Shown here piece after piece: positions 4,828-55,337 of a DNA stretch of 64,000 bases (positions are counted from its first letter, which is position 1; each line of letters begins with the position of its first letter). The DNA lies in the NCBI RefSeq assembly GCF_002994745.2, contig NC_037092.1, forward strand, positions 23,957,001 to 24,021,000, given 5' to 3'. This stretch comes from Rosa chinensis (lineage: Eukaryota > Streptophyta > Magnoliopsida > Rosales > Rosaceae). The position numbers and the translations under genes are program-made. The notes under the pieces were generated by a model, which was not told the DNA's origin, made no database searches, and saw nothing but the letters and a program-made list of their open reading frames with translations.

Positions 4828-5395
4828 TTTTTTTTTTTTAAATTTATTTTATGCAACTTTAATTTGGTTGTAGTGCATTGACAATTCGGAGGCCTGTATG
4901 AAAATAACCTCCTTGCAACATTTCTTTCCATGAAAATAATGGAACAAAAAATACATAAATAAATAACTTAAAAAAAAAATTTAGCTGAAGCAAATAAGGG
5001 GCCTTCCCCTTATTTGAATTTATTAAAAAATAAGAAGAAAAGTAGCAACTTAGGAGGAGAACAAAACTAAACCTTCCTACAAAAGTAACAAAAAGAAATA
5101 AGCTATCATAACCGAAATTGAGGAATACCCAATTGGTCACTCTGACAATGCGATAAAAAAAAATGGAGGAGCATCCCACCATACCATGTTAGGAGAAGTC
5201 GTACCATAAATTTGCCAAAACATTAGCTACCTTATTACATTTGCGAAAAATATGTGATACACGAAAAGTCATTTGAAAAATCTAGTACAAGCAATTGAGC
5301 CATCTAATAATACGAAGTTGCCAGGGGACCAACAAAGGAGACTTAATAAAATCGAGAATAAAAGAAGAGTCTACTTCTAGCCAAATTTTATAAAA
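4828..5395 (-). mobile_element. Decayed LINE 3' end (RNase H domain and poly(A))
   Basis: Translation of the minus strand with several frame changes and stops gives pieces such as LWLEVDSSFILDFI, HIFRKCNKVANVLANL and TNWVFLNFG. These align in order with the RNase H C-terminus of the intact LINE at 20.2 kb (WIECDSAVAIHFL, HIYREGNQVADCLAN, LQGLPNF). The T-run at 4828-4841 is the poly(A) tail. The piece is truncated at its 5' side near 5395. Confidence 0.7.
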
Positions 5396-5799
5396 TTAAC
5401 ATGATTGGTGAATGAAATGTAAAATACATTGAAATTGGACGACATCACTACCTCATGGCCATTTATGTTTATACTTTACACATGTTATTACATACTCATT
5501 AATTATATCTTTTATAATAAAAATTACTCTCTGTTCAAATCGTCTACACAACACTACTAGAAATCTGTTCATTTACATCACGTCATTTAAATCGGTCAGA
5601 CTTGCACATGATGTAAAAATGTAAGTTAACATCGTTTTAGAAAAATACCGATTTAAATGTATACCATTAACATCGGTTCTTAAAATGACCGGTGTTAAAA
5701 GTTTTGTTTAAAAATTTGTGGGAACCTCATTTTCGTGGACGCGCTAAGTGTTTTAATGAATTCAAGGACGCGGGGACTAAAACTTAAAATTTTCACACT

Positions 5800-25224: not shown

Positions 25225-28200
25225 AAGCTCAATCTGGTCAATGGCGTGCTTTTCACCGGAGGCTGGGCTAAAAGTGGTCGGTACTATGAAGTTGCTGCGA
25301 AAATATTTAAGGTACTTTACGGTACTTGCAATGCCTTTAGTGCATGATACTGTCCTGGTTTTCTGGGCATCCCAGTAAAACCATATTTTTATATATTCTG
25401 GGACCGCTTTCACAGCTAAACAAAGAACTCCATACTTTCTACATGAAATGCTGGTCAATGCAAAACATTTTGAATATCCCAATGCACTTGTAGCAGCTCA
25501 CTCTGAAGGTGCCAGTAGCAAAATGGACTAATATGAGTCATCACAGCATAAATATCGTGATGCTCATAATGCATGGACATGATATTAAGCTTAGTATCAT
25601 ACTGTCCAAAAGCATCAGCATCAAACATAATTTCTATGTACCACAGCCTACACTAGGCAAAAGAAAATTTTGATTATGCAGGTTAGACCGAAGAGCTAAA
25701 TGGGGCTTGGAAGTGAATGGTAGAAGAGACATGGGATGTTGATAGTTTGAGTATGTATTGCAACCGTGGCATTGTTGTCATGGTCAGCTAGCATCAAAAG
25801 TTTCAAGGCTTCCCTTCACAAAATTTCCTGTAGAATAGTTCCACTGCTTTTCTTAGTGATTTATCTATGTCCACTATTCAAAAGCAGTGTATCTACTTAA
25901 GTACTTATATCAGCTATTCTCTTATTGTTGTCTGCAGATGATTTTAAAGAAGAATGATGCTGGTGACCATTTTCCATTATATGCCATCTGCTTGGGTTTC
26001 GAACTTCTAACAATGATCATCAGCAAGGTAAATCCATCCAGTTCATAATTCACTGTAACTATTCAGTCTCTTGCAGTTCAAATTACATTTTGTTTTTGGC
26101 CTTTTTTAGTACAATATATGCCTACTAATCACTTTCGATGATCAGATTCAATGCCATCAATTTTATTATTTCCAATGATGCTTTAAATGATTCAATTGTT
26201 GAGAGAAGCAAACTAGGATTTCTGGTTCTTGGGTAACACCTTATGCATGATGAAACAATCTCAACTATTTACTGCATGTGAGCTATTCCCACCCTAGTGA
26301 AAGGCCTTCTTTGGTTTCTTAGGTTGATACAACTTGAGACTTCAAAAAACAAAACACCCTTTTCACGAGTTAGAAGAAGTTGAATGTACTACTTTGCATT
26401 CACAGTTGAAATTGTGGAACAATTGTTCGTTGTCAATCTGAATCACCTTAGTTCAGTTAGATGTAGTGTTAATTTTAACTTTTGAATTTCTTATCTATAT
26501 ATGTGTCTCAACAATGCCTTTTATAGAATTGTCTCAGTTTCATGCATGACCATTTTCTTTCTTTCTTTCTTCATAACAGAACAAGAAAATTCTGGAGTCA
26601 TTCAGTGCTGCAGATATGGCTTCAACTTTACAATTTACCGAGACAAATATTGAGGGAACTGTGTTTCAAAGGTATATACCTCGTAATATGGTTTTGCCAT
26701 TCATTCTGTATGTACTTGAGCTTTACAAGGCCTCTACCTCTCATTAAACAAAAATTTTATTAATAATATTTAAGTCAATCTTTCACGTTTTTCTTCAAAC
26801 AGTGTGCATTGATCACCCTTAACATGATCCATTATCCATTATCGAAACAAACTGTGAAATCTATGAGTATGTGCATAAACGAAAACACTATAGTTTTGAT
26901 TTTTACAGCTGTACAAGCAGCATGTTAATTGTTTACTGGCCCTCTAAAAACTACCTTGAATTCGTGGTGGAACAAGTGAATTTCCATTTGTTATCTCTGT
27001 TTAGTGGTTATGACATTTATTCTCATCATGACAGGGAGGATGGTTGATATCTAGAGTTGTATGGTCTTATTTTTATAAACTTTTTTTGATGTAGAAACTT
27101 CTGTGGTTACCGAATACCCCGGCTGATTTAATTTTTGTGACCTCCAAATGATTGTTTTGCAGATTTCCGCCTGATTTGCTTAGAAAGTTGAGTACAGATT
27201 GTATTGTCATGCAAAACCACCATGTGAGTTATAATGAACTTTATTATCTATGCCTATAAGCACAGTCCTGAATAATCACCTGAAAATAAATTATCTGTTG
27301 TAAAACAGAAAATTTTTTGAGAGAGAGAGAGAGTTTGGACACAGAGAATCAGATTGTGTGTCTTATTCATCTCACCATGAGGAGCCTTATATAGGACTAC
27401 ATGGTGTGCACAAAAGGGTAATGCTTAATTACAATCCAATCACTCCTACAATTACAACCTATCAATCACCAATCTATAGGGATAGGCACCTATTACTCAT
27501 CATCTATTTACATGATTATCCACAAATATTTACAACACTCCCCCTTGGATATTCCATGTCAATAGTGTTGCATAGGCTGAGCGCTTCTAAGTTGCCTCGT
27601 CAAAAACCTTGCCAAGTAATAAAAACCCTGTGGGAAAAAAACAATCTTGGTCGAAGGAGAAAAAGAGCACAACGCGCTTGAGTGTGGAGTGGCAGTATCA
27701 CAGCTTTAGAGATAGGTGAAGTCTTCTTATCAGCACCATAAGTAGGTAGTATGTCTACGAGAGGGATGCATTAGAGTTGCTACACCAAAACCTTGCCCGG
27801 TAAACCCAGTGGGAGAAACCCGTGGTCGAAGGGAAAAGATGAGCAAATGCATATATGTCAAATCAAAGCATCTTCAGGATGTACTATAATTAGGGTGACC
27901 ATGCTAAAGATGTGCCTCGTTAAAACCTTGCCAGGTAACAAAACCCAGTGGGACAAAATAACCCTGGACGAAGGACAAAAAGAGTACACGATGGTCAAGT
28001 GGGTATGCTTCAGGATACTCCCCCTGATTTCGACTCCCCCTGAAAATTACATGTTAGGTAATTCAGATAGTTTACGTAGACCAATACCTTGAACATACTT
28101 CTGGAATGTAGACTTTGGTAGTGACTTGGTAAAAAGGTCTGCACGATTGTCTTCAAATCAAATATGCTCAACTTCAATCTTCTGATGCTCCTGTTGTTGC

Positions 28201-31200
28201 TAATTGAAGGAGAACTTCGATACAATATGTTTGGTGTTGTCTACTTTGATGAAACTCATCTTTATCTGCTCTATGTAAGCAGCATTATCCTCGTAGATAA
28301 TGGTTGGTTCATCAGTGGTGGAATGCAGTCCACATGTGCTTCGAACATGCTTTGTAACGGCTTTTAGCCATGTACATTCACATACTGCTTCGTGAAGAGC
28401 TAGTATCTCAGCATGATTCTAAGAGGTAGCAACAACTGTCTATTTCGTAGACCTCCAAGAAATTGCAGTATTCCCAATGGTAAATACATAACCAATCTGG
28501 GAACATGCCTTGTGCAGGTCTGATAAATAGTCTATATCAGCATATCCAACAAGTCAAGCATCATTCTGAGGATCAAGGGGGTTTGATCCATTCCTTGATG
28601 CATAGGGATAGAATAAGCCCATATCCGCTGTACCTATAAGGTAGCGAAAAATGTCTTTTATGCCATTTTAGTGGCTGCGTGTCGGCGCAGAGCTATATCT
28701 AGCTAACAAGTTCACATCGAATGAGATGTCTTGTCTAGGGAATTAAGCCAAGTACAATAATGCGCCTATTGCACTTAGATATGGGACTTCTGACACCAAT
28801 ATCTCTTCGTTATCATCTGCAGGACGATATGATTCTCTCTAGACTTTAGACGACCATGGGTGTGCTTGCTTTTATCCTCATTAAAGCATCTTAACATCTT
28901 TTGGATGTAATTTGGTTGATGGACCAAACTTTCATCTACACTGTGCTCGGGCTCTAGGTCGAGACAATAATTTGTTCTCCCAAGGCCTTTCATCTCAAAT
29001 TCCAACTTCAGGTGCTTTGCGGTTTCCTTGATCTCTTCAGGAGTATCGATCAAATTCATGTCATTGACATAGACCGCCACAATTCCAAACTAGGAACTTG
29101 TTTCCTTAATAAACACGCATGGGCATAGTTTATTATTCACATATCTCATCCCGATTAAATATTCACTTAGACGGTTATACCACCTCCGTCTGGATTGTTT
29201 CAATCCATAAAGTGAACGCCTCAAAACTAATGAAAAGCGTGTTCCATGGTCTAGAACTATTTGCATCGGGTATATTAAGTCATTCTGGAACTTTTATGTA
29301 TATCTCTGTGTCGTGATCCCCATAGAGATAAGTTGTGACCACATTCATAAGCTGCATATTCAGTTTTTCGGAAACTACCAAACTGAAAAGGTAGTGGAAC
29401 GTTATGACGTCCATTACGGGAGAATACGTCTCCTCGTAATCAACCACAGGGCATTGAGAAAATTATTGCGCCACTAGACGAGTCTTGTGTATCACAATCT
29501 CGTTTTTCTCATTACGCTTCCTTACAAATACCCATTTAAATTCTACGGGTTTAATATGGGGAGGTGTAGGAACAACAGGTCCAAACACCTTTCTCTTTAT
29601 CGAGGAATCTAATTCGACCTGGATTGCTTATTTCCTTTTTGGCCAGTCTTCTCTTCGTTAATATTGATCAACAAAGCAGGGTTCGAGGTCATCGCTTATT
29701 ATATTTTCGGTGGCCACCGCAAATACTAATATATCATCGATGATGATCTCATTCCAATTCCAAATCTCACTAAATTTACTGAGATTTCTCTATTCTCGGG
29801 AGTGGGTTCAAATGTTGGAGCGTCCCCCAACATCGTCTCTTCTAGGACAGACCTATAATCTAGATTTATCTCATGAGATGAATCGGTTTGAGATTGCGAT
29901 GTCAAGAGGATTCTTTTGTGCCAAGTTTACCCTCTTCTAGGGATAAGAATCCTTCGAACCTAATGATCTACCTCACTTCTGGGCAGTGACATATGACTGG
30001 TTAGCCGCCATGGTCGTACCTCGTCCATCTGGGACGACACATCGTACAGGGACATCTATCCTTGCAGGCACATTTGCAGCAGGTATATATGATCTCGTCA
30101 CTTTTGCTAGATCAAAGAAAGCGTCTGGCATATTTTGGGCTACACTCTGTAGATCTAGAATTCTCCGCACTTTATTATCACATTGTGCGGTTCGGGGATC
30201 AAGATGAGACATAGTGGGGACATTCCACGTCAATTCACGTCGTTCATCAGGAACAGTAATGTTCTTATCTCCCCCTAACGGCGGGAAGACTGTCTCATCA
30301 AAGTGACAATCCGCAAATCTAGCGGTAAAGAGATCGCCTGTCAAGGGCTCGAAAGAGCACATAATGGATAGGATTCATAATCGACATGTATGCCCATCCT
30401 TTGTTGAGGACCCAAGTTTGTACGTTGTGACGGCACAATTGGCACTAGAACTGCATACCCAAATGAGTGTAAGTGCGAAACATCAGGTTAGTACCCAGTC
30501 ACCAGCTATAACGCGGAGTAAGGTTGGTAGCAGTGGGCCTCAACGGGACCAACGTAGCTGCATGCAAGATTGCATAGCTCTATGCAGAAATTAAAAGCTT
30601 GGTGCGCATTACCAAGATTCTATCTGCGAGACCATCTTGGGTGTGAACATAGGGAAATACATGTTCAGCATCAATCCCAAAGGATATGCAATAATCATCA
30701 AAAGACTTCGATGTAAACTCTCCGGTATTATCAAGTCTTATAGACTTTATGGAATAATCCGAGTGGTGAACCCTCAATTTCATGATCTGGGTGAGAGTTT
30801 AGCAAAAGCAGCGTTTTCTTGTGGACAATAGTGTAACATGTGATCACTTTGTCGATACATCAACCAAAACCATTAATATTTAACTGGTCCACATGGTGGT
30901 TGGATATGTCCACAAATTTCCCTTGCATTCTGTGCAGAAAAATGGTGGTGTATGTACTAGTCTTTGCATATGATGGTCTAGTATGGCATAGCGTATTATT
31001 ATATACAAGACCCTTATTCAGAAGGGGATGCACCTGCAATGAATTGAGGATACGGTGCATCATACTTTGACCTGGATGTCCCAAAAGGTCATGCCATAGC
31101 AAGTAATTGCTTGAATTAGTTAGCTTCTAGCTAACAAATTTCAATTTCTCCAATGTACGCTTCTGGCTGCACACTCGGAGGTTATACAAAGATATTCCAC

Positions 31201-34200
31201 GCATTTTTCTCAGTGGTTTCAGCGTGATAACCGTTGGTTCGAATATCCTTAATACTCAATAACGTTCTTCTGGAACGTGGAGAATATATGGCCTCATTAA
31301 TGGTAAGTTCAGTACCATTGGACAACATAAAGTAGGCTTTGCCATAGCCCTCTATCAGGTTGGATTGCCCTGATACGGCTGTCACAGAGGTATGAATAGA
31401 CAATAAGTTTGAAAAATATCTCCGATCTGGGAGTATGGTGTGCGTAATAGCACTTTTAACCAGACAACAAATTTCCCCACAGAATATGCCTATTCATTTA
31501 TTTAATTCAATGGATCACATGTATGAATAAGTTTATTGAATTAAATATATTCGAACATAACCACATTTCTATAATCCAAAATAATTGAAAACATAAATCA
31601 CCAAAATCTGAAGATGTTTCATTCATTAAGATGAAATAGATATGGCACAAGGGGCCAATTATACCCATGTCTTCGAGTTCTAATCCTCGGTATGTTCAGT
31701 AACTACCTGAAAATTCGTGATCTCTAGTGTGGAATCAATAGAAAATGACCCTTTAATAAAGTTGGTATTTCGAGTTCCGCGATCGGCGTAATACTCATCT
31801 ATTGCTTCGGCTATCGCACAACAGGTGCGGGACCAGCAGTCAATTCTTCCACATCGATAACAAAGATCATGCTGATTCTGGTGGCGACAGGCCTGACCAG
31901 TGTTCCTTTCAACTCAGGCTTGTTGAGTTAGGGCATCACGGTTCCCACAACGTGGGCCTTGGCCACTTGGATGACGGTCATATGGGTTTTTTTTGTTCTA
32001 CCAATCTTGTCTTGCTTCAAGCAAGAAAATGGTCATCTGATGGTGAAAGTACTCTTCCAGAGCAACCCAAAGAGTCTGTGTATCCTTTTAATCGGGTACT
32101 TAACTTGGAGTGCTCTCTCCATATGTTTCTTTATGAACATTATGACACTCGCCTTAAAAGCCTCAGTGACGACATTGTCAATATCGATTGTTGATCTCAT
32201 CTTCTTTGCAGTTAGATGAATTTTCACATCTTGAGTTCACTTTAGATAGTTTCTTCTGGAGACCTCCAAAGCAACAAAGTCAAACATGTTGAGATTTGAC
32301 ATTTCTTACAGGAAAGGAACAAATAATATTAGTGCTTTGGGTAATATCATCCATAAGCAAGTAATGAGAACTTCAGGTTCTATAACATGGTATGAAAAAT
32401 CGGATTAGACATGTAAAATCTACTGGTTTTATCATGTGTGGTGAATTTATGAAAGGAAACTTCAAGTTTCTTAAACGGCATTATCAAAACTACAAGTTCG
32501 ATTTATATATGAACTACGGGTTCATTTAGAACTTCTAGTTCACTAGGTACCTGCATTTTCTACACATATATTCTAGTGCGAAAATTCAGACAAGTAACAC
32601 AATAATATTGAAAAAGGTAAATTGTAATAATATCTCACAAATTGGATAAATGGAAATCATAAATCAATTGAGATATTAATTGCATGCTAGTAAAATAACA
32701 TATTAATTATCACACAATTATGTGAATAAATGCTTCTGGCAATTAATTACACATATTAGATATGGTGAATTTATTTACAATATGATTTACAATATGAAAT
32801 CATTTTTATTTTGATTCTGCGGGACCAAAGAAGGAGTGGGCTTGATAGTGAAGCCTATCGGGCTTAGTCTGCAGCAGGCTTGTGACCCGGGCTTTCATGC
32901 GTAAGTCAAATGGTGTGTGAGGCATGCTGGGCTCAGGCTGGTCTGCCAAGGAATGAAAAATTATTACTCAACCCTTTCGGTAACTCCAATTGAATACGAC
33001 CAGGTAAGGAAGGATGAGGTTTAGGTGGAGCGAGGCTCACTTAAGTACACAGCCTCATTTGAACCTTACCTAGACATCGCATCCAACTGGATGAGCCTAC
33101 TTTGAGAAGATTCATAACTTTTGTCATGGTAACATGTAGTGAGTTGCTATTCTGGCCTTGCAACTTGGGCCTGAGCTTCTGGCTCGAATTTGTTGTTATG
33201 ACTTTGGGCTTGATTTGAGCTTCTGACTCAGCCTCTATTAATATTCACAATTATAACATAACCAAATTCAATATATGTTATTAAATCGTAACATAAATAA
33301 ATTAATGCAGCGGTTATATACCTAAGGAAATGGGTTCAAATCCCATTAATGCTTCTGGCATTACGTACAGGTAATAAATTTAGCAAATACTTTTGGCATA
33401 ATGTTTATGTAATAATCACGTAATAATTTAGCCCATAATGCTTCTAGCATAAAGAATTATAATGGCAGATTCAAATTTGTGTAACCAAAAATTAAGCCCA
33501 TAATTCTTCTATCATAATTCAGGCAATAATTCAGAATTGTCTCAATGTGATAATGAAGTGATTGTGGTAATGAGCATAAATTACAATGGTAATTGCTTTG
33601 GATAAAATCAATCAAAATCAAATCACGGGTTGATCAATCACCAATTATATGGAGTTGAATCTGCTTATGGCAGTATTAATATTAAATAGTGTTGATAAAT
33701 TCCAGCTAGCCATAGTGGCATAGTGGACAATGTGCTAAGCTAATGCATGATGTGGCTGGGTTCGAATCCCAGGAGCAGCAAAATCCCTTTTCTTTTTGCT
33801 TGTTTTTTAATTGGTATGCACTATATGGTACTACTGGACCAAATGCTTTAAATCCAAGAATCCTAACCTTTTTTTTTCTTTTCCAACCAAACAATCCAAA
33901 GCCAAATAAACCAAGACACATAAACGAATATATATAAATATGTATATACCAAATATTAGGGTTCATGCATCATGGTGATTGTTCATATTCAATCATTAGG
34001 CTCAATAAACATGAGTATGAAATTAGATTTTGGAAAATATTACTTGATGAAGAACGGATGAATCTTCAGCTTATATGTGCAGAACTGAGAAGGTTGTCTT
34101 CTCAGCCAATCCAAGAGCTATTCGCCTATTCTGGACAGCTCCCACTTCGAATGGTGTACAGGTCTCAAAACGACTCCAATATGGATGAAATTTGGAGGGC

Positions 34201-36841
34201 AAATAGAAGAGACAGAGACGAACAACTTTGATGAAGGAAAGTTTTTGATCTGACGTCCCGATCAAGAGGTTTCTGGGCGTGCAAACAGGCTGCAGCAGGG
34301 GGGTTTTTTTTCTTGGCTAGAGCTTTGGTTAGAGCTTCGTGCTGATAACGTGTTGTAAAACAGAAAAATTTTTGAGAGAGAGAGAGAGTTTGGACACAGA
34401 GAATCAGATTGTGTGTCTTATTCATCTCACCATGAGGAGCCTTATATAGGACTACATGGTGTGCACAAAAGGGTAATGCTTAATTACAATCCAATCACTC
34501 CTACAATTACAACCTATCAATCACCAATCTATAGGGATAGGCACCTATTACTCATCATCTATTTACATGATTATCCACAAATATTTACAACATTATCTGG
34601 TTAAATCTTAGCATTGTTTATCTCTTTTTTCATGCGTAACCCACTTTTTTTTTTTGGGTTCAGATGGGTAACCCACTTTTAAAACATATATCATTGGCTT
34701 TTTTGTTCATTTGTTCTTCTAAATAATGAATTATTAATAGTCTGAGAAAGTTTAGATTGTTTCATTATGATGATGAGCTGTGGCCTATCATCTGACAAAG
34801 CTTGATGAGAATAATTTGATTCTTATATCATGACATTGCTGAATGTTGTTGAGACTTGAGACAAGGATTTTTTTCGCTTCTGCTTCTCTGAACCATGCAT
34901 TTTGGTTTTGGTCCTGCTTTAATCTATATGATTATGATTACAAAGCAAACTATTGGTTTTCTAAAGTAACCCGAGTTTACAATGATTCAATGCAACAGTA
35001 TGGTATCTCACCAGAGACGTTGGAAGAGAGCCAAGATCTATCAAGTTTTTTTAAGATCTTGACAACCAGTACTGATAAAGATGATAAGGTAGTGGATCTT
35101 GTTACATGTTTTCCAAAATCAATTCCAAAATTTCCTTTTTCCCGTGAAGAATTCTAATTCTTGTAGCATTAATACCAGGTCTATGTCTCCACAGTACATG
35201 CATACCACTATCCTGTGACTGCCTCCCAATGGCATCTGGAGGTATTATTATAATGTTGTTAAGTCTTTTGATTGTATGTGACTATTAATTTATTTAAGTC
35301 TGCCATAGCAGCAATAGCACAACAAAACACTGTTTACAAGTGGAAACACGTTGAGGTTCTTATTTCTATTAGTGTCTTCATGGATATCTAACATGTGTTA
35401 TTGTGGAATTTAAGACAAAATAACATTTTTCTTTCCCACTTCAAACAATTGCAATATGGCTACATTTGTATTCTTAGAATTTGTTCAAATAACTATTTCC
35501 GTAAAGCCAGTAAAGTTTTGCATTGCAACAGAAATAATTGGATGAACCCTGCAGATTAAGTGAAGAATAGTATATTAAGAAAATGAATAGACTACTGACT
35601 AGTCTTTGTATTCTTCTCCCTCTGTTCTTGCCTCATATATTTTGGTTATTTACATATTGGAGCGTTTCCAATACATCTGTTAATTTCATATATGATGCAG
35701 AAAAATGCTTTTGAATGGGGGTTACCGATGATTCCACACTCAGAAGATGCCATTCACGTGACTCAGCACATCGCAAACTTTTTTATCAGGTCAGGGCTTA
35801 TGCTGTATCCTTCTTATGTTCTCCTTTGATTGAATTACTATGTTAAACCTCAATATGTAGTGTACAACTCTCTTTAGGAAGGAAGAGGCCATGCAACAAT
35901 TATCGGACGATGTTGAAATTTAGGTTTAGAACTGTACAAATGCATTATTAGTTTTTTCATTATTCAAGGTATCAAATTTCAGAATACACGTAGAGCTGAA
36001 AAACTCATGGGATTCCAAACATAAGTTAGATTCAGTATCTTACCGAAACAACAGTTACCTGGTTTATCCAACCAGAATGATAGAAAAGCCAAAACTCATT
36101 GCAATTGAATTTTTGATGCAGCGAGGCAAGGAGGTCATTAAACAGGCCACCTATTCAGGATGTCCTCGACAATCTCATCTACAATTACAGTCCAACATTT
36201 TGTGGGAAGGCAGGGTAAGCCAAAAGTGCCCTTGAAACTGCATTACTGACGCAGACGGATTGATAACTAGGTTTACCAGCAATAAACCTAAGCAAAAGAT
36301 TCTGGAGTCCACCAGAGATAAAAGAGAATAATCTCAATTTTATTGATAAAAGATGATAAAAGATCCTCCTGCAGCCTTTAGGCGGCTTATTTATAAGAAA
36401 ATAAACCCTAGGGCGACTAACATTGAAACCCTAAAGGCCATGGGTAAAAACGAAAACAATCCGAAAACAACTAGAAAAACCAAAACGTCGGAAAATAGAA
36501 AAATGCAATTTTGAGGCCCTAAACGACCCCGAAAGCCCGAAAAAGGTCACAGGTCGTGGCATAGCGACGAGTTTGATTTCTGGCGCGATTCCCTTTCCGG
36601 AAAGGTAAGGTGCGTCCCAATCGGACTCCGGAAGCCCATTTCACGTCTACTAGTCACTTTTCGTTTTCCACCTTTGGCACGATCCAATTGTTCTTCAAAC
36701 TGGACTGCCATCTGTTCTGCATCAATTACTATTTTCTTTATTTGAGTTTACTAACTTCTAATTTTTCATATGCTTTCTGATTGTAGGAAGGGATACGATG
36801 AAGTTTACATCTTTAAACAACCTTCACTCGCACATTTGTAA
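25225..36841 (+). CDS. GGH: Gamma-glutamyl hydrolase (folate conjugase), 5'-truncated, nine exons
   Basis: The exons join in phase: 25225-25311 (KLNLVNGVLFTGGWAKSG), 25938-26027 (MILKKNDAGDHFPLYAICLG), 26580-26671, 27163-27223 (FPPDLLRKLSTDCIVMQNHH), 34999-35088 (YGISPETLEESQDLSSFFKI), 35179-35241 (VYVSTVHAYHYPV then QWHLE), 35701-35789 (KNAFEWGLPMIPHSEDAI), 36122-36214 and 36787-36841. GGH is a vacuolar class-I amidotransferase-fold cysteine peptidase that trims polyglutamate from folates. The nucleophile Cys (AICLGFEL) and the His in QWH are present. The usual QWHPE reads QWHLE. The first part, normally about 100 residues with the signal peptide and PVIGILTHPGD, is absent: a LINE ends just upstream. 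Intron 4 holds a 7.3-kb Copia and the last intron a solo LTR. No internal stop is present, so truncation is recent or the missing exons moved. Confidence 0.85.
27296..27537 (-). repeat. 3' LTR of Copia number 1
   Basis: The 242-bp LTR has TGTTGTAAA...TTTACAACA ends and a TATATAAG promoter box (minus strand) near 27388. It differs from the partner LTR at one site in the A/T run near 27312. Confidence 0.95.
27592..27995 (-). repeat. Three copies of a conserved Copia 3' non-coding block
   Basis: A block containing, on the plus strand, CCTTGCCAGGTAA, CCCAGTGGGA and GGTCGAAGG occurs at about 27592-27680, 27787-27840 and 27908-27990. The same block occurs once, in the opposite orientation, before the 3' LTR of Copia number 2 (55028-55120) and in the Copia fragment at 46727-46835. 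Confidence 0.8.
28000..32230 (-). pseudogene. Decayed gag-pol of Copia number 1
   Basis: Recognisable pieces from right to left: gag-like (32227-32033, FKASVIMFIKKHMERAL), protease region (31403-31182, YGKAYFMLSNGTELTI), GAG-preintegrase (31102-30860, LWHDLLGHPGQSMMHRILNS), integrase core (30783-30580, IRLDNTGEFTSKSFDDYC), linker (30362-29973, CHFDETVFPPLGGDK), and RT (29080-28775, VYVNDMNLIDTPEEI...). The RT catalytic YVDD reads YVND. There are many stops and shifts between pieces. It cannot encode a polyprotein. Confidence 0.85.
32367..33450 (-). repeat. Hairpin array in Copia number 1
   Basis: Short inverted repeats surround a loop that on the minus strand reads CAGAA, TAGAA or CTGAA: 32367-32381 AGAAC/GTTCT; 32456-32470 GAAAC/GTTTC; 32509-32525 ATGAAC/GTTCAT; 32529-32541 GAAC/GTTC; 33173-33185 GAGC/GCTC; 33216-33230 TGAG/CTCA; 33347-33363 TAATGC/GCATTA; 33438-33450 ATGC/GCAT. 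The array lies between gag remnants and the primer side, the same place as in Copia number 2. Confidence 0.75.
33714..33782 (+). repeat. tRNA-like sequence (SINE head or tRNA relic) inside Copia number 1
   Basis: TGGCATAGTGGACA fits a Pol III A box, and 30-40 bases on CTGGGTTCGAATCCCAG forms a perfect 5-bp T-stem with 7-nt loop and B box GGTTCGAATCC. The acceptor and anticodon stems do not pair well, so it is not a standard tRNA gene. It runs opposite to the Copia. A tRNA-derived SINE is most likely. Confidence 0.4.
34351..34592 (-). repeat. 5' LTR of Copia number 1
   Basis: The 242-bp partner of the LTR at 27296, with only one difference between them. It is followed on the minus strand by the primer-binding-like CGTTATCAGCACGA. 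Confidence 0.95.
36247..36724 (-). mobile_element. Solo LTR or short terminal-repeat element, 478 bp, in GGH last intron
   Basis: On the minus strand it starts TGATGCAGAACAGATGGCAG and ends GTCTGCGTCA. The 5-bp target duplication ATTAC lies at 36242-36246 and 36725-36729. A CTTATAAATAAG box (minus strand, about 36386) is the likely TATA. No internal region is present. Confidence 0.85.
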
Positions 36842-49233: not shown

Positions 49234-49377
49234 CCATTTAGCAGCTCTTTCTGACATTTATTGAATTTGTACTATTATGCTATTTACTGAATTTGTAATA
49301 AAGTCTAACATTTCTCTAAAGAAATATGCATCCTCTTTATAATTTAATAACTAAGATTAAATATAAAAATAAAGAAA

Positions 49378-49541
49378 TGTTGTAAATATTATTATTTATA
49401 TGGCTGTCCACGTAAATACTAATTAGTTATGTGCTTTGATGCAAACCCTACCTCTATATAAAGGAGGCTAATGAGACTGAATGAAAAAACTTCTACTTCC
49501 TCCCTACTATTCTCTCTCCATATTCTCTCTACTTTATAACA
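49378..49541 (+). repeat. 5' LTR of Copia number 2
   Basis: 164 bp; TATA box CTATATAAAGG at about 49453. The LTR family differs in sequence from Copia number 1, apart from the TGTTGTAAAT start. Confidence 0.95.
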
Positions 49542-50330
49542 CGTTATCAGCACGCTTTGCTCTTATTTTTATTTTTTCTGAAAACTCTATGATGATCTAA
49601 GAGTTTTTGGTGTAAGCTGCTTGCTTTTTGACCTAACTCATGATCTATGGGTTTATCCTTTTTGATTGACTTATGCGATTCATATTCATGTGATGATTTT
49701 TTTTAACATTGTTTGCGATACATATATATTGCAAGTCGGTTATATGCATAGATACAAAGCCCGAGACCATATACACCTTGATATCTACATATTGCAGGAC
49801 TGCTTAATTTTTCCAATTATGCAAAAACTGATATATGATTTGTTTCTTAACTCCTAGATGACGAACTGGCTTGATTCTCTATATATTATATAATTGCTTA
49901 ACTTTTCCAACTTGTTGCTTTTGACGAATCACTACTGTGTTATATATGTACAATCTATGTTTTGTTTAATTTCAATTGCAGCTCCTGTTCCTTTTATTTA
50001 GACCATGACATTTTGTTTTTGATATTAGAGCTAGCATAGTGGATCTTTTATAGTATAGCATATTTTATTGTATAATCAGTGCTAGCTAATGGTACTACTG
50101 TGTCTTATGTTTTAAAATTGATATTCATCATATCATATATATATGCAATACCCGAATTGAAATATAGTGCGGTACAGTGCGAGTTGAATCACATCATTGG
50201 AACTACACATAATTGAAAGAAACTCTGGTATGTTGGTATAGTTTCAATCTTAATTTACTCTCTTTACTATTAATTCCAGCGATGAATAAAGTCACATATG
50301 GAACTGTGAATTTTGTAATACAAAGTGATT

Positions 50331-53300
50331 GAGACCTGAAGTCTCTTACTCTAATTACTGAGGGCCTGAAGTTCCTCGAGAGTTGCATAATGATAAAATT
50401 GCAACATGAAATTTCTCAAAGCTTAACGAGGGCCAGAAGTTCCTCAGAATTATACAATGATCAAAATCGCATGTTGCTTGATCACTGATCATATGGGGAC
50501 CTGAAGTTCCTCTAGGGTCATGATATGTAAATTGGAAAATTGTGACATGAAGCTCTTCAGAGTTTATACAATTACGAGGGCCAGAAGATCCTCAGAGCTA
50601 TACAATCGAATATATAAACTCATATTAATCCCCAATTATAAGAGGGCCTGAAGTTCCTCTAATGTTTTTTTTTTCAATAATGGGGTTCAAACCACCTCCA
50701 GAAGTTGTAGTTCGAGGATGGACACTAAGTCAATGCCAGAAGCCTCTTGACTATACATTTTTTTAAAGAGAATTTGTCCAGAAGACTTCTTGTGCAATTT
50801 GAAGAGAGATAGAAGATTTTCATGAACCAGACCAGAAGTTCTGCGTATTCGATCTCTTCATTAATGGAACCAGAAGTTTCCACAATTAATTTTATTGCAT
50901 AGTTTATCTATTTATTTTTCTTCCCTGCAATTTTTCTATTTTGTTATGTACTTTCATTACAGTACTTATCTTTTAAATTAATTTTTTTTTTGTTACTCAT
51001 ACGGACCAGCAGTCTTATACCTCGAACATATGAATTTTGAGTGTAATATTTTTGAACCAGAAGTTCAAAATTTCATAGTAGAACCTGAAGTTCTAACAGT
51101 AAAACTCAAACCCGAAGCTTTGAGTATAAAATATAAATTAGTTAAAAGTGAACTTGAAGCTTCACTTTAGTCACCTCGAGCCTGAAGTTTCGAGCATCAA
51201 ATTTATTTGAACCCGAAGTTCAAATTACGAAATTTTAGAACTTGCAGTTCATAAAAAAAAATATTCGAACCTGAAGCTTCGATTACACATACAATTCATT
51301 CATAGTTTATTTGACTTTATGTCAACTCGAACTAGAAGTTTCGAGTAAATTTTCATATGTCGATTGATACATTCTTCTTTATGTCTGCTTAAAGCATTCC
51401 ACCTTAGAACCTGAAGTTCTAATTGTGCAGACTCGAGCCTTAAGTTTCGAGTGGATATATGGACAATTTATTGAAGAATTTTAATCTCGGTCAACCTCAA
51501 ACCTGAAGTTTTGAGGGAATTATATTGACACCAATTTAAAAGTAAGCAGATATTTTACTGTTCGTTTATGACGAATGAGTACGAGTATACCCCAAATTTG
51601 TGATGGTGGATTTTGTAATTAAAAGAGATCAAAAACTGTAGTTCCTTGATCCTTAATTACATGAGGACTTGAAGTTCCTCAATGATCAAACTAACTAGAT
51701 GACCATCTAAAGTCCTTCACTCATAAGTTAAGGTCATGAAGTTTGAACTCGACATTTCGAGTATATTATTTTGGCTAGAAGTTCAAAATGCATTTGATGT
51801 TAATCTACATCAAACAACAACACAATAATTAAACGTCATGTTTTACCTGTATAACACGGACCAGAAGCTTCGTGTATATCCTATGAGATCCACTGTTCAA
51901 TTCTTACAAATTGATTTGTGTCATCTTCAAACTTATGTTTTGAGTGATTTTCAGGCAATGCAATTTTATGCATGGTGTCCAGAAAACATTATTAAAGCTT
52001 ATGCTTATGAGGCTAATATAACAATCATCTCAGATCTTACATATCTGATTGATGGCTCCAGAAGAGCACACATTATTGTCCCTTTGCATTCTGTGCCTCC
52101 AATATTACTAGAGATGTATAATCTCCCTGTCTCATAGATCTCATTGTATAGTAAGAAAGCCGATTGACATGGCTATACCATGAAATGCCACCAGAAGTGG
52201 ATCATGGCAAAAGAAAAATCAGGAGTCAATGTAAATATTGTCCTAACATCCACACATGTGAGGAAATTGTAAATTGGGTGTGTGTCGCCCATGGTACACT
52301 ATATGGTGGATGATCATCAAGCCACTTTCGAAAGGGCACTGGTCAAATTAAAGTGCATTGACTAGTAAGAACATTGAGATCATCACACATCCCTGATGTC
52401 TTTTGCTTACAATAAGCAACTTGAAATCACTATTATGCTACTCCATAGATTTATTGTATCCTTTTGAGTTCCCATTGAAACTCAATGTTTCTTAATCCGA
52501 TTATCTAGGAACCTAATGTTCCTTAAGAGGTTGTTATAAATTGAAAAAAAAATTGAAACCTGAAGTTTCTTGGATCTCCAATTATATGAGGGCTTGAAGT
52601 CCCTCCTCTTTATGACTACACAAATATATACGTGACAGTGAACTTGAGGTTCTCCACGTAATAAAGTTACTCTTTTATTATGGATTGTAGTCTTTAACTC
52701 GAAATTTTCGAGTATATCATTTTGGCCAGTAGTTCAAAATGAAGTTGGTCCATTCCAATTATCAGTATTTCACAATTAATGTTTACTGAAGCTAAGGTAA
52801 CAACTATATCAAGAGTTGTAGATCTTGATCTATGGCTCCAAATGAGCTACTATCATGTTACCAAATTTGAAATATTGTTGCATTATTTGCTTATTATATG
52901 GTTGGAGAAGACTTTATGCCATCGGATATATACTGTATCGAATTTTCTGCAGTAAATTAAGGCATATGATGTCATGAACCTGAAGTTCCTTGAACCAAAT
53001 ACACTATTTTGACATGATCGGTTACTTCATCTTTTGTCTACCATGTTGCATGGAATCACTTACAAGTTTGATGATTGCTAATCTTACTCACAAGCAAATT
53101 GTTTATTTACATATTTGCGAGTTGTCACTTTAATGAGACAATCCTCCTGCAATGAGGGGGAGAAATATTGTTCCTGAAGAACGATATGAATTGGTGTGAG
53201 ATATTTATCCACCGTCTCATTTTGACTTTGAGAAATATCAAAACTAGTGAATTGATAAAAGAAAGTGACAAAATTATATGCTAAATGCAAAGGCATCTGC

Positions 53301-54622
53301 TTGGGTTAAAGTCCTTGAGACCAGCCATATTAATACAAACAATGTAGACTCCATTTGATTTGTAGGATGCAAATGTATCCAATTGACATGGTTCTCCTGA
53401 AGAGAATGTCATTAAACAATATCACAGCTCCTAATATGGCTACACATACAGAGGGTGTAAGTACGCCATTCGGAAATGATGTCTTAGTGATACAATAATA
53501 AATCAATATGGTTGATGCTAATGGACAAAACATTTTTGACCTAAAACTTGGTTTGGGTTCGCCACCAGCCAATGAACACCTTCACTCCAAAGAAAGTGAT
53601 AGATTTTTGAATGCATCTTTTGAGCATGGTCATAATAAGACAGTCTTCCCGCTGTTAGGGGGAGGAAAGACTACTATCATTTGAATAACGGCGTGAATTT
53701 GCGTGGATTGTATCCACCAGGTCTAAAGTTTTAAATTCCCAAAACAGGGAAGATTATACAAGCCCTATAATGCTCTATATGAGATTATAAGTAAAAAGAT
53801 CCACATTCGCTACATAATTCATCTATGAGAGATGATTGTCCTAGAAGCGACAATGTATGCCCCAGAAGTGGCATGGGTACCCAATATCAATAAGCTTATT
53901 ATAGCTAATGCATGCATATAAGAATGTGTGGGATCTATGATTGTTGATCATCGATGATAATTTACATTTGGTAGCTACCAAAAATCTTTAAGGGCTGTAT
54001 GGACGCTATACCACGTTTCACCATAAATGTCGACAAAGTATATTATTGGCCAAATTGGAAAGAGGCAATTCCAATGAAATTCAATATTTGAAACGTGATG
54101 AAATACTTGGACCTCTAACCCTACAAGTTACAAAAGGGTATTTATCAAAAGTGAAGATAAATCACTACGACACAATGTCTATTTATAGAGACATGAGATT
54201 ATGAATATCTTCCCTTATATGAATGACAATTTTCTATAAGTACAGTGTTACATATAGCTGTTATATTGACGAGAGATTTATGGCACTTTGTCATCGTATA
54301 TTGTGAAGACACATTGCTAAAAGCAAAATTTTAAAAGCAAAGTGTCATAATAAGTGTATTTCTTATCAAATCCTCAAGGGATTCAAATACATGAATGATT
54401 CAAATGCAAGTCCATGAAAGGTTGAAAGAGCCTGAAGCTCACTTATGGAATCAAAGAGTCTAAAGCTAGCTCATATGTACTCATTTCGTTCTAGTCAACG
54501 AGATCTAAATTGCCTTAATGAGTACTATGACGAGACTACTATCAAATTTAAATTATGATTATAATGTTGCAACATATTCTAACTTTCACTAAGTTATGAA
54601 TTATTTAGAGCTCTTGAAGAGC
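50331..54622 (+). repeat. Array of about 35 hairpins with conserved C(C/T)(A/T)GAAG loop (densest 50331-52988)
   Basis: Examples (stem halves): 50331 GAGAC/GTCTC; 50641 AGAGG/CCTCT; 51050 TTTTGAAC/GTTCAAAA; 51079 TAGAAC/GTTCTA; 51105 CTCAAA/TTTGAG; 51145 AAAGTGAA/TTCACTTT; 51205 ATTTGAAC/GTTCAAAT; 51265 TCGAA/TTCGA; 51325 ACTCGAA/TTCGAGT; 51404 TTAGAAC/GTTCTAA; 51495 CCTCAAA/TTTGAGG; 51854 ACACG/CGTGT; 52055 GCTC/GAGC; 52188 CCAC/GTGG; 52507 AGGAAC/GTTCCT; 52588 GAGGG/CCCTC; 53835 ATTGTC/GACAAT; 53857 ATGCC/GGCAT; 54428 GAGC/GCTC. The loop core is CTGAA, CAGAA, CCGAA or TTGAA, usually followed by G. Spacing is irregular, 20-120 bp. Confidence 0.88.
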
Positions 54623-55168
54623 ATATATGAGACATATCAATACACAAAGATATTGATGTGTATGGCTAGGCATGCCATAATGATTTTCAATGTTTTAAGC
54701 TATACAAAGTTAAATGTGTCAATTTCTTTATATTGTTTAGCTATTACTCAGTGAATGAATTTGAGCATATGAGATTGTTTCTAACCTTATTATATGAGGT
54801 AAGACTTATTGAAAATCGTCTAGCTTTGTTGGTATTGCTTAAACTTTGCAGGTATGAAAATTTGTGATGAGCCCCTATATGCAAAGCACACATGGTCTCA
54901 CTTCAGTGATAGACACATCAAACCACTATACATGGTACATGTAGCTTATTGCATACATAATTAAGGCTTGCAACAATCAGGGGAAGATTCTCATCAGGGG
55001 GAGCATCCAGAAGCATGCTACCTAGGACATATGCGCGTTGTGCTCTTTTTGTCCTTCGACCAGGGTTATTTTTGTCACACTGGGTTTTTGTTACCTGGCA
55101 AGGTTTTTAACGAGGCAACAATAAGCGCGTCCAATATCATCATTCATTAGTGGACATCCAAGGGGAAG
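53090..55168 (+). pseudogene. Traces of Copia pol in element number 2
   Basis: Two separate remnants of the integrase-RT linker are visible: HFNETILLQ then GGEILF (about 53130), and HNKTVFPLLGGGKTT (about 53634). They correspond to CHFDETVFPPLGGDK of Copia number 1. The rest is too decayed to assign. The Copia 3' block is at 55028-55120. Confidence 0.55.
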
Positions 55169-55332
55169 TGTTGTAAATGTTATTATTTATATGGCTGTCC
55201 ACTTAAATACTAATTAGTTATGTACTTTGATGCAAACCCTACCTCTATATAAAGGAGGCTAATGAGACTGAATGAAAAAACTTCTACTTCCTCCCTACTA
55301 TTCTCTCTCCATATTCTCTCTACTTTATAACA
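55169..55332 (+). repeat. 3' LTR of Copia number 2
   Basis: 164 bp, three differences from the 5' LTR, all within the first 60 bp. Confidence 0.95.
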
Positions 55333-55337
55333 AGAAA

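Follow-up and report, generated by a model that had tools for sequence, protein, structure and literature searches.

In this work we analyzed a 64,000-nucleotide stretch of the Rosa chinensis genome (contig NC_037092.1, positions 23,957,001 to 24,021,000 of the forward strand), referred to here as the window and numbered from its first letter. An earlier note on this DNA had described, within a Copia element, a C(C/T)(A/T)GAAG motif that recurs between flanks complementary to each other. The element concerned, E1, is bounded by long terminal repeats (LTRs) and lies on the plus strand, and a second element of the window, E2, carries hairpins of the same type on the minus strand. The hairpins are restricted to the sense strand, exceed what shuffled sequence gives and may act as packaging signals. 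The features of E1 are the following:

49378-55332, plus strand: E1, the whole LTR element, read as a Bianca (Ty1/copia) copy
49378..49541, plus strand: 5' LTR, placed by local LTR alignment, ends read from the sequence
55169..55332, plus strand: 3' LTR, placed in the same way
49373-49377 and 55333-55337: target-site duplication AGAAA, flanking both LTRs
49542..49554, plus strand: primer binding site CGTTATCAGCACG, directly after the 5' LTR, of the Bianca type (PMC6317226)
50331..51516, plus strand: dense part of the hairpin array, loop C[YWGAA]G
51520..55019, plus strand: sparser part of the array, in partly pol-derived, decayed sequence
50331..50345, plus strand: hairpin GAGAC/GTCTC
51050..51070, plus strand: hairpin TTTTGAAC/GTTCAAAA, 8 pairs, bulge-free
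51079..51095, plus strand: hairpin TAGAAC/GTTCTA
51145..51168, plus strand: hairpin AAAGTGAAC/GCTTCACTTT, 9 pairs, one 3' bulge
51205..51225, plus strand: hairpin ATTTGAAC/GTTCAAAT, loop CCGAA
51404..51422, plus strand: hairpin TTAGAAC/GTTCTAA
51495..51516, plus strand: hairpin CCTCAAAC/GTTTTGAGG, one 3' bulge
53165..53187, plus strand: hairpin ATATTGTTC/GAACGATAT, 9 pairs including G-U
55002..55019, plus strand: hairpin AGCATC/GCATGCT, close to the 3' purine tract

The two LTRs of E1 are identical at 164 of 168 aligned positions (local alignment), and a 17-mer, AACACGTTATCAGCACG, found at 49538-49554 with 0 mismatches, is common to E1 and E2 at the LTR end. A half-tRNA-Ile primer is the mark of the Bianca lineage and is given for Bianca only in Neumann et al. 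2019 (PMC6317226). Because the primer site shared by E1 and E2 is of this Bianca-marking type, we call both of them Bianca elements; the likeness includes its place by the 5' LTR and, more tentatively, the pieces with copia domains in E2, some of them below the Pfam cut-off. The bases of the site presumably match the edited half-tRNA-Ile. The longest sense frame of E1 has 102 amino acids (aa), and no Pfam domain matched any of six longer sense frames. Judged by its sequence, the element is a copy of a Bianca (Ty1/copia) LTR retrotransposon that lacks coding capacity. Parts of the element are direct repeats that include hairpins. By eye, 53140-53200 and 53640-53690 apparently represent the same pol-derived stretch, present twice in decayed form, and each has a AGGGGGAG purine run (compare E2 near 30270).

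The exact motif C[CT][AT]GAAG occurs in E1 at 34 sense and 0 antisense sites, from 50335 to 55007, slightly beyond the end first assigned to the array. Stems of at least 4 pairs flank 22 of the 34 sites when G-U is allowed and 13 with Watson-Crick pairs only; those named in the earlier note are present, for example at 51050-51070 and, with one bulge, at 51145-51168. The null model, a shuffled control already proposed in that note, consisted of 500 dinucleotide shuffles of the E1 internal region. It gave means of 1.28 motifs, 0.08 stems of at least 4 pairs (G-U allowed) and 0.02 (Watson-Crick), and 0/500 shuffles reached either the observed motifs or the observed stems. When the motif was relaxed and a single bulge or mismatch tolerated, 33 of 42 E1 sites formed at least 5 pairs. 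The plus strand of the window outside E1 and E2 (50.4 kb, joined) contains 12 motifs and no stem of 4. Swapping arms between sites abolished the match (z 12.6 in E1 and 10.6 in E2; looser motif, 42 sites each). Chance and base composition as the source of the hairpins are ruled out by the shuffles, the arm swaps and the exact-arm counts given below.

The second element and its hairpins are located as follows:

27296..34592, minus strand: E2, another Bianca copia element, carrying hairpins of the E1 type, with LTRs at 34592-34351 and 27537-27296
31262..31278, minus strand: hairpin ACGTTC/GAACGT, loop CAGAA, in pol-derived sequence, at the same place in five relatives
31114..31140, minus strand: hairpin with an in-frame pol stop exactly in its loop
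28003..28018, minus strand: hairpin GTATC/GCATAC near the 3' purine tract, counterpart of E1 55002..55019

Its LTRs are identical at 241 of 242 positions, and its broken coding pieces include Pol_BBD and one RVT_2 above the Pfam cut-off, with further RVT_2 pieces and gag_pre-integrs below it. E2 has 20 motif sites in sense and 0 in antisense; stems of at least 4 pairs number 10 both with G-U and with Watson-Crick pairs only, against shuffle means of 1.85 motifs, 0.09 stems with G-U and 0.03 Watson-Crick stems.

Loop classes and coding decay among Bianca loci

The genome searched (515 Mb, 53 contigs) holds 3,188 exact copies of the 17-mer AACACGTTATCAGCACG and 0 of the reversed sequence. We surveyed the first 30 listed primer-site loci, a non-random sample lying entirely on contig 1, taking the internal sequence to a maximum of 8 kb for 20 loci and a 1.5-kb leader for the other 10. 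At least one hairpin with a given loop placed a locus in a class, with the following outcome:

C[YWGAA]G, 7 loci: L038-L041, L043, L051, L030
C[TAAGAGY]G, 11 loci with 1 to 7 sites each: L024, L026-L028, L032, L034, L036, L044, L045, L048, L049
C[TTRGA]G, 10 loci with 1 or 2 stems of at least 4 pairs: L022, L023, L025, L029, L031, L035, L042, L046, L047, L050
No array recognised, 2 loci: L033 and L037, where it was either lost or belongs to a loop class overlooked by the scans

L030 is partial, with an E1-like leader and two stems of 4 pairs. The hairpins of the two sister classes are found in the leaders, at a comparable place. Of 14 sites looked at in E2 outside its leader, seven that carry the strict motif could be aligned with one or more of ten sister loci, and the sisters lack the motif there, except L032 at the two 3' sites. 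L032 looks chimeric, with a TAAGAGY-class leader and an E2-like 3' part carrying YWGAA hairpins (internal 5280-5440).

Coding capacity is decayed throughout the YWGAA class, in which the longest sense frames have 84 aa in L051, 133 in E2 and 103-310 in five others, and LTR identity is 94-100% (six elements with both LTRs bounded). E1 and L051 combine the shortest frames with the most motif sites (34 and 26; also the most per kb) and with LTRs that are 98-99% identical (160/162 in L051), so that, by their frames and LTR identities, both are copies with no Gag of their own and a recent spread. In 14 sister loci the longest frames are 112-422 aa, likewise not intact in one frame. Among six E2-family copies, a gag stop is common to four and the pol stop inside the hairpin loop to five, the frame having been read in E2 and part of these copies. 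The shared stops suggest that E2-family sequences multiplied after frame loss and hence in trans, unless the stops are read through.

Arm matching, loop specificity and variation between copies

Arm matching was analyzed in eight elements, namely E1, E2 and six fuller YWGAA loci, with a redundancy filter applied ahead of the swap test. Arms matched the partner at their own site much more closely than partners swapped in from other sites (z 18.5, 81 non-redundant sites). The same motif in 21 sister loci served as a natural control and gave z 0.8 (26 non-redundant sites), and for the two sister classes the swap gave z 3.6 (12 sites) and 3.2 (7 sites). Exactly complementary 3-base arms were present at 77 of 174 sites, in 14 different triplets, compared with 1 of 31 in 14 sister loci. 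In a ranking free of any assumed motif, only eight C[NNNNN]G loops reached 15 or more occurrences in these elements; mean stem scores were 8.2-10.1 for the four of YWGAA type and 1.6-3.1 for the other four. Genome-wide counts of arm-swap patterns carry no weight, only two matched patterns having been counted: GAACYWGAAGTTC occurs 586+549 times and its reversed pattern 148+182 times, TTGCYWGAAGCAA 183+219 times and its reversed pattern 1+4 times.

These data bear on the origin of the stems. If one ancestral hairpin had been duplicated many times, the stems would be shared by descent and functionless, and both the GAAC/GTTC arms that recur among the hairpins and the hairpin-containing direct repeats of E1 would be expected. 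Yet the complementary arms comprise 14 different triplets, all four Watson-Crick pairs are present at stem pairs 2 to 5, redundancy had been filtered out ahead of the swap, and motif sites lie in pol-derived sequence whose aligned sister copies, L032 excepted, lack the motif; we therefore regard this origin as extremely improbable. The shapes of the hairpins speak to a mutational origin as well. The 62 non-redundant hairpins that pair well divide into 24 perfect ones, 29 with a single bulged base on the 3' arm, 6 with one on the 5' arm and 3 with a mismatch. Template switching at the loop motif that copies an arm (quasi-palindrome correction), a process without selection and of the arm-copying kind to which the earlier note had also pointed, should erase such bulges, and it explains neither the constant loop nor the stemless occurrence of the same motif in sister elements. 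It would make arms match whatever their sequence, with no need of compensatory selection, which fits the absent excess of compensation between copies described below. Such a mechanism is not needed for the arrays and, given its poor fit with the conserved loop and the 3' bulges, is in our view highly unlikely.

The dense stretch of E1 has at least 47 matches in the genome, with 40 of 274 candidates scored, and the long matches, E1 itself aside, are 82-97% identical. We compared 20 hairpins in ten copies (E1 and L052-L060, with L051 left out). The fraction of sites with shared variants was 0.068 in stems and 0.128 in linkers, and that with singletons 0.107 and 0.183, respectively; thus, variation in the stems of these copies is about half that in the linkers. 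Within the loop, the G, A and A had shared variants at 0.05, 0 and 0 and the first position (C or T) at 0.30. Clean compensatory changes, with flanks more than 90% identical, were found in two cases (L040 against E2 and L041, and L040 against L038), and the E1 and E2 hairpins near the 3' purine tract show a further pair difference. The "covarying" stems of the earlier note are accordingly borne out between different hairpins of the arrays, while between close copies, where that note had looked to family alignments for compensatory substitutions, these occur occasionally and without excess. The claim of covariation is drawn from the arrays and from the comparison with sister families, and not from close copies.

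Weighing a packaging role against other readings

Altogether, the restriction to the sense strand, the excess over shuffles, the arm matching, the array-less relatives and the lower variation of stems make selection on the folded structure, one of the two explanations first offered for the array, well supported. As to what is selected, we propose that the hairpins are dispersed, loop-specific Gag binding sites for RNA packaging which gene-less copies have kept, a reading whose chances of being right or wrong we put at about even. The E1 RNA would fold into dozens of short hairpins presenting the loop C[YWGAA]G, with stems that are free in sequence but must pair and a loop that is the part read. 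Zinc-knuckle nucleocapsid domains commonly bind exposed loop bases, and the likeliest reader would be the nucleocapsid part of a Bianca Gag. Many weak loop contacts along the RNA might then select the right RNA and start particle assembly, and gene-less copies would keep the hairpins because these admit them to particles made by others. The other loops of the sister Bianca families (TAAGAGY, TTRGA) would make the loop a family-specific address.

Several results weigh against this proposal or against the selection beneath it. The reduction in stem variation is equally strong in singletons and in shared variants, so that causes other than selection before insertion may be involved. Variant pair states still paired in 22 of 50 cases, against 38% (893/2,351) of linker pseudo-pairs, and among the cells with double changes, drawn from 887 comparisons of similarly flanked hairpins, 16 were paired and 57 unpaired. 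In local folds, a closing pair probability above 0.5 was reached at only 66 of 174 YWGAA sites, and many single hairpins are consequently only moderately stable by prediction; the corresponding figures are 0 of 28 for same-motif sites in 14 sister loci and 21 of 27 for TAAGAGY hairpins. In the TAAGAGY class, 2 of 5 distinct arm pairs are complementary against 1.2 expected, and with so few sites covariation in the sister classes is only weakly supported, the presence of their hairpins as such not being in doubt. A zinc-knuckle-like motif is present in 5 of 6 E2-family copies, and in 4 of these 5 its histidine is absent. Finally, the sequences that Ty1 requires in cis are confined to the first 380 nt at the 5' end and the last 357 nt at the 3' end, rather than forming a dispersed array (PMC4974528), although Ty1 and Ty3 resemble our proposal in that Gag recognises structured RNA sites of an LTR retrotransposon (PMC4974528).

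A further point concerns the molecule that is read, because the sense-strand limit fits RNA or plus-strand cDNA equally. G-U pairs showed no significant excess over A-C (14 to 9, p 0.40), which does not separate RNA from cDNA and leaves room for hairpins that act in cDNA at reverse transcription, through pausing, strand transfer or nucleocapsid on single-stranded DNA. Nothing counts directly against this; dozens of sites would probably exceed the needs of strand transfer, and we consider a function in cDNA rather unlikely. We give somewhat more weight, while still rating it as unlikely, to a reader other than Gag: a host protein that binds RNA, or the translation apparatus, with the hairpins serving in export, stability, ribosome entry or stalling. 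Loop specificity would then look identical, and the sister-class hairpins do lie in the leader, a frequent home of such signals. In E1 and the E2 family, however, motif sites occur all along the element, also in its pol-derived and 3' parts; E1 has no frame longer than 102 aa to translate, and different loops in families of one host would require several readers.

Returning to packaging by Gag, it is tempting to speculate that each Bianca family uses its own loop as a particle ticket, which gene-less parasites such as E1 have multiplied and thereby out-compete their helpers. We offer this loop code tentatively, as plausible but with the balance tipped against it. If true, it would be the first dispersed packaging code in an LTR retrotransposon known to us, and a genomic parasite would be seen amplifying its signal. 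Little is known of how the RNA of plant retrotransposons is selected for particles or of how gene-less copies travel, and a single genome that offers a wealth of natural variants, relatives without arrays and three classes of loop makes loop specificity directly testable.

Many short stem-loops with a common loop and variable stems within one RNA are known from RNA viruses, where they serve as packaging signals. About 30 AXXA stem-loops act as dispersed signals in satellite tobacco necrosis virus (PMC3593212), hepatitis B virus has RGAG loops in its packaging signals (PMC7612645) and enterovirus-E has packaging stem-loops with a common loop (PMC7793301). The E1 and E2 arrays share this design, but those systems have measured contacts with coat or core protein, whereas in the present case the contact is a proposed one and the carrier is an LTR retrotransposon. 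A link between LTR retrotransposons and the packaging-signal-guided assembly of RNA viruses would follow if the proposal holds, together with a sequence mark telling which parasites use which helpers. BARE2, a copia element of plants that lacks a Gag of its own, is packaged by BARE1, and its RNA is found in particles (PMC3735527); it spreads in trans, as is proposed for E1. Conserved dimerization and packaging signals are mentioned for it, and no array is in the portion of that paper used here. Retrozymes are likewise non-autonomous plant LTR elements with a functional RNA structure (PMC4918200), but they carry hammerhead ribozymes, and a search of the 64-kb window against Rfam at gathering scores gave 0 matches, hammerhead ribozyme included. 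The Bianca paper treats the primer site and the layout of open reading frames, and neither "secondary structure" nor "untranslated" is used in it (PMC6317226). No hairpin arrays in Bianca or other LTR retrotransposons were found in titles or abstract starts of the open-licence papers searched, in agreement with the initial statement that no plant element of such design is described.

Hairpins in the leaders of the sister classes

In the search for relatives outside this genome, the sister-class leader-hairpin pattern had 0 matches in the genome contig and viral contig collections. In the viral contig collection a piece of the reverse transcriptase used as query found no relative, and the 17-base primer site matched one locus (L001). 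TAAGAGY hairpins form short tandem runs, often about 19-32 nt apart (e.g. L036 internal 720-825), and the TTRGA class usually has one or two hairpins (CAAGC/GCTTG, CAAAC/GTTTG) 25 nt apart. Upstream of the runs, a hairpin with the loop UGUGGGG is present in 8 of 11 TAAGAGY loci, including one whose loop is variant, and in 9 of 10 TTRGA loci, for example at L036 internal 690-715 and L050 565-590. Counted without L031 (deletion) and L028 (loop variant), and with identical rows entered once, its covariation score was matched by 32 of 500 shuffles and is thus weak, and it is paired in 93.5% of 77 cells, compared with 14-49% for slid versions.

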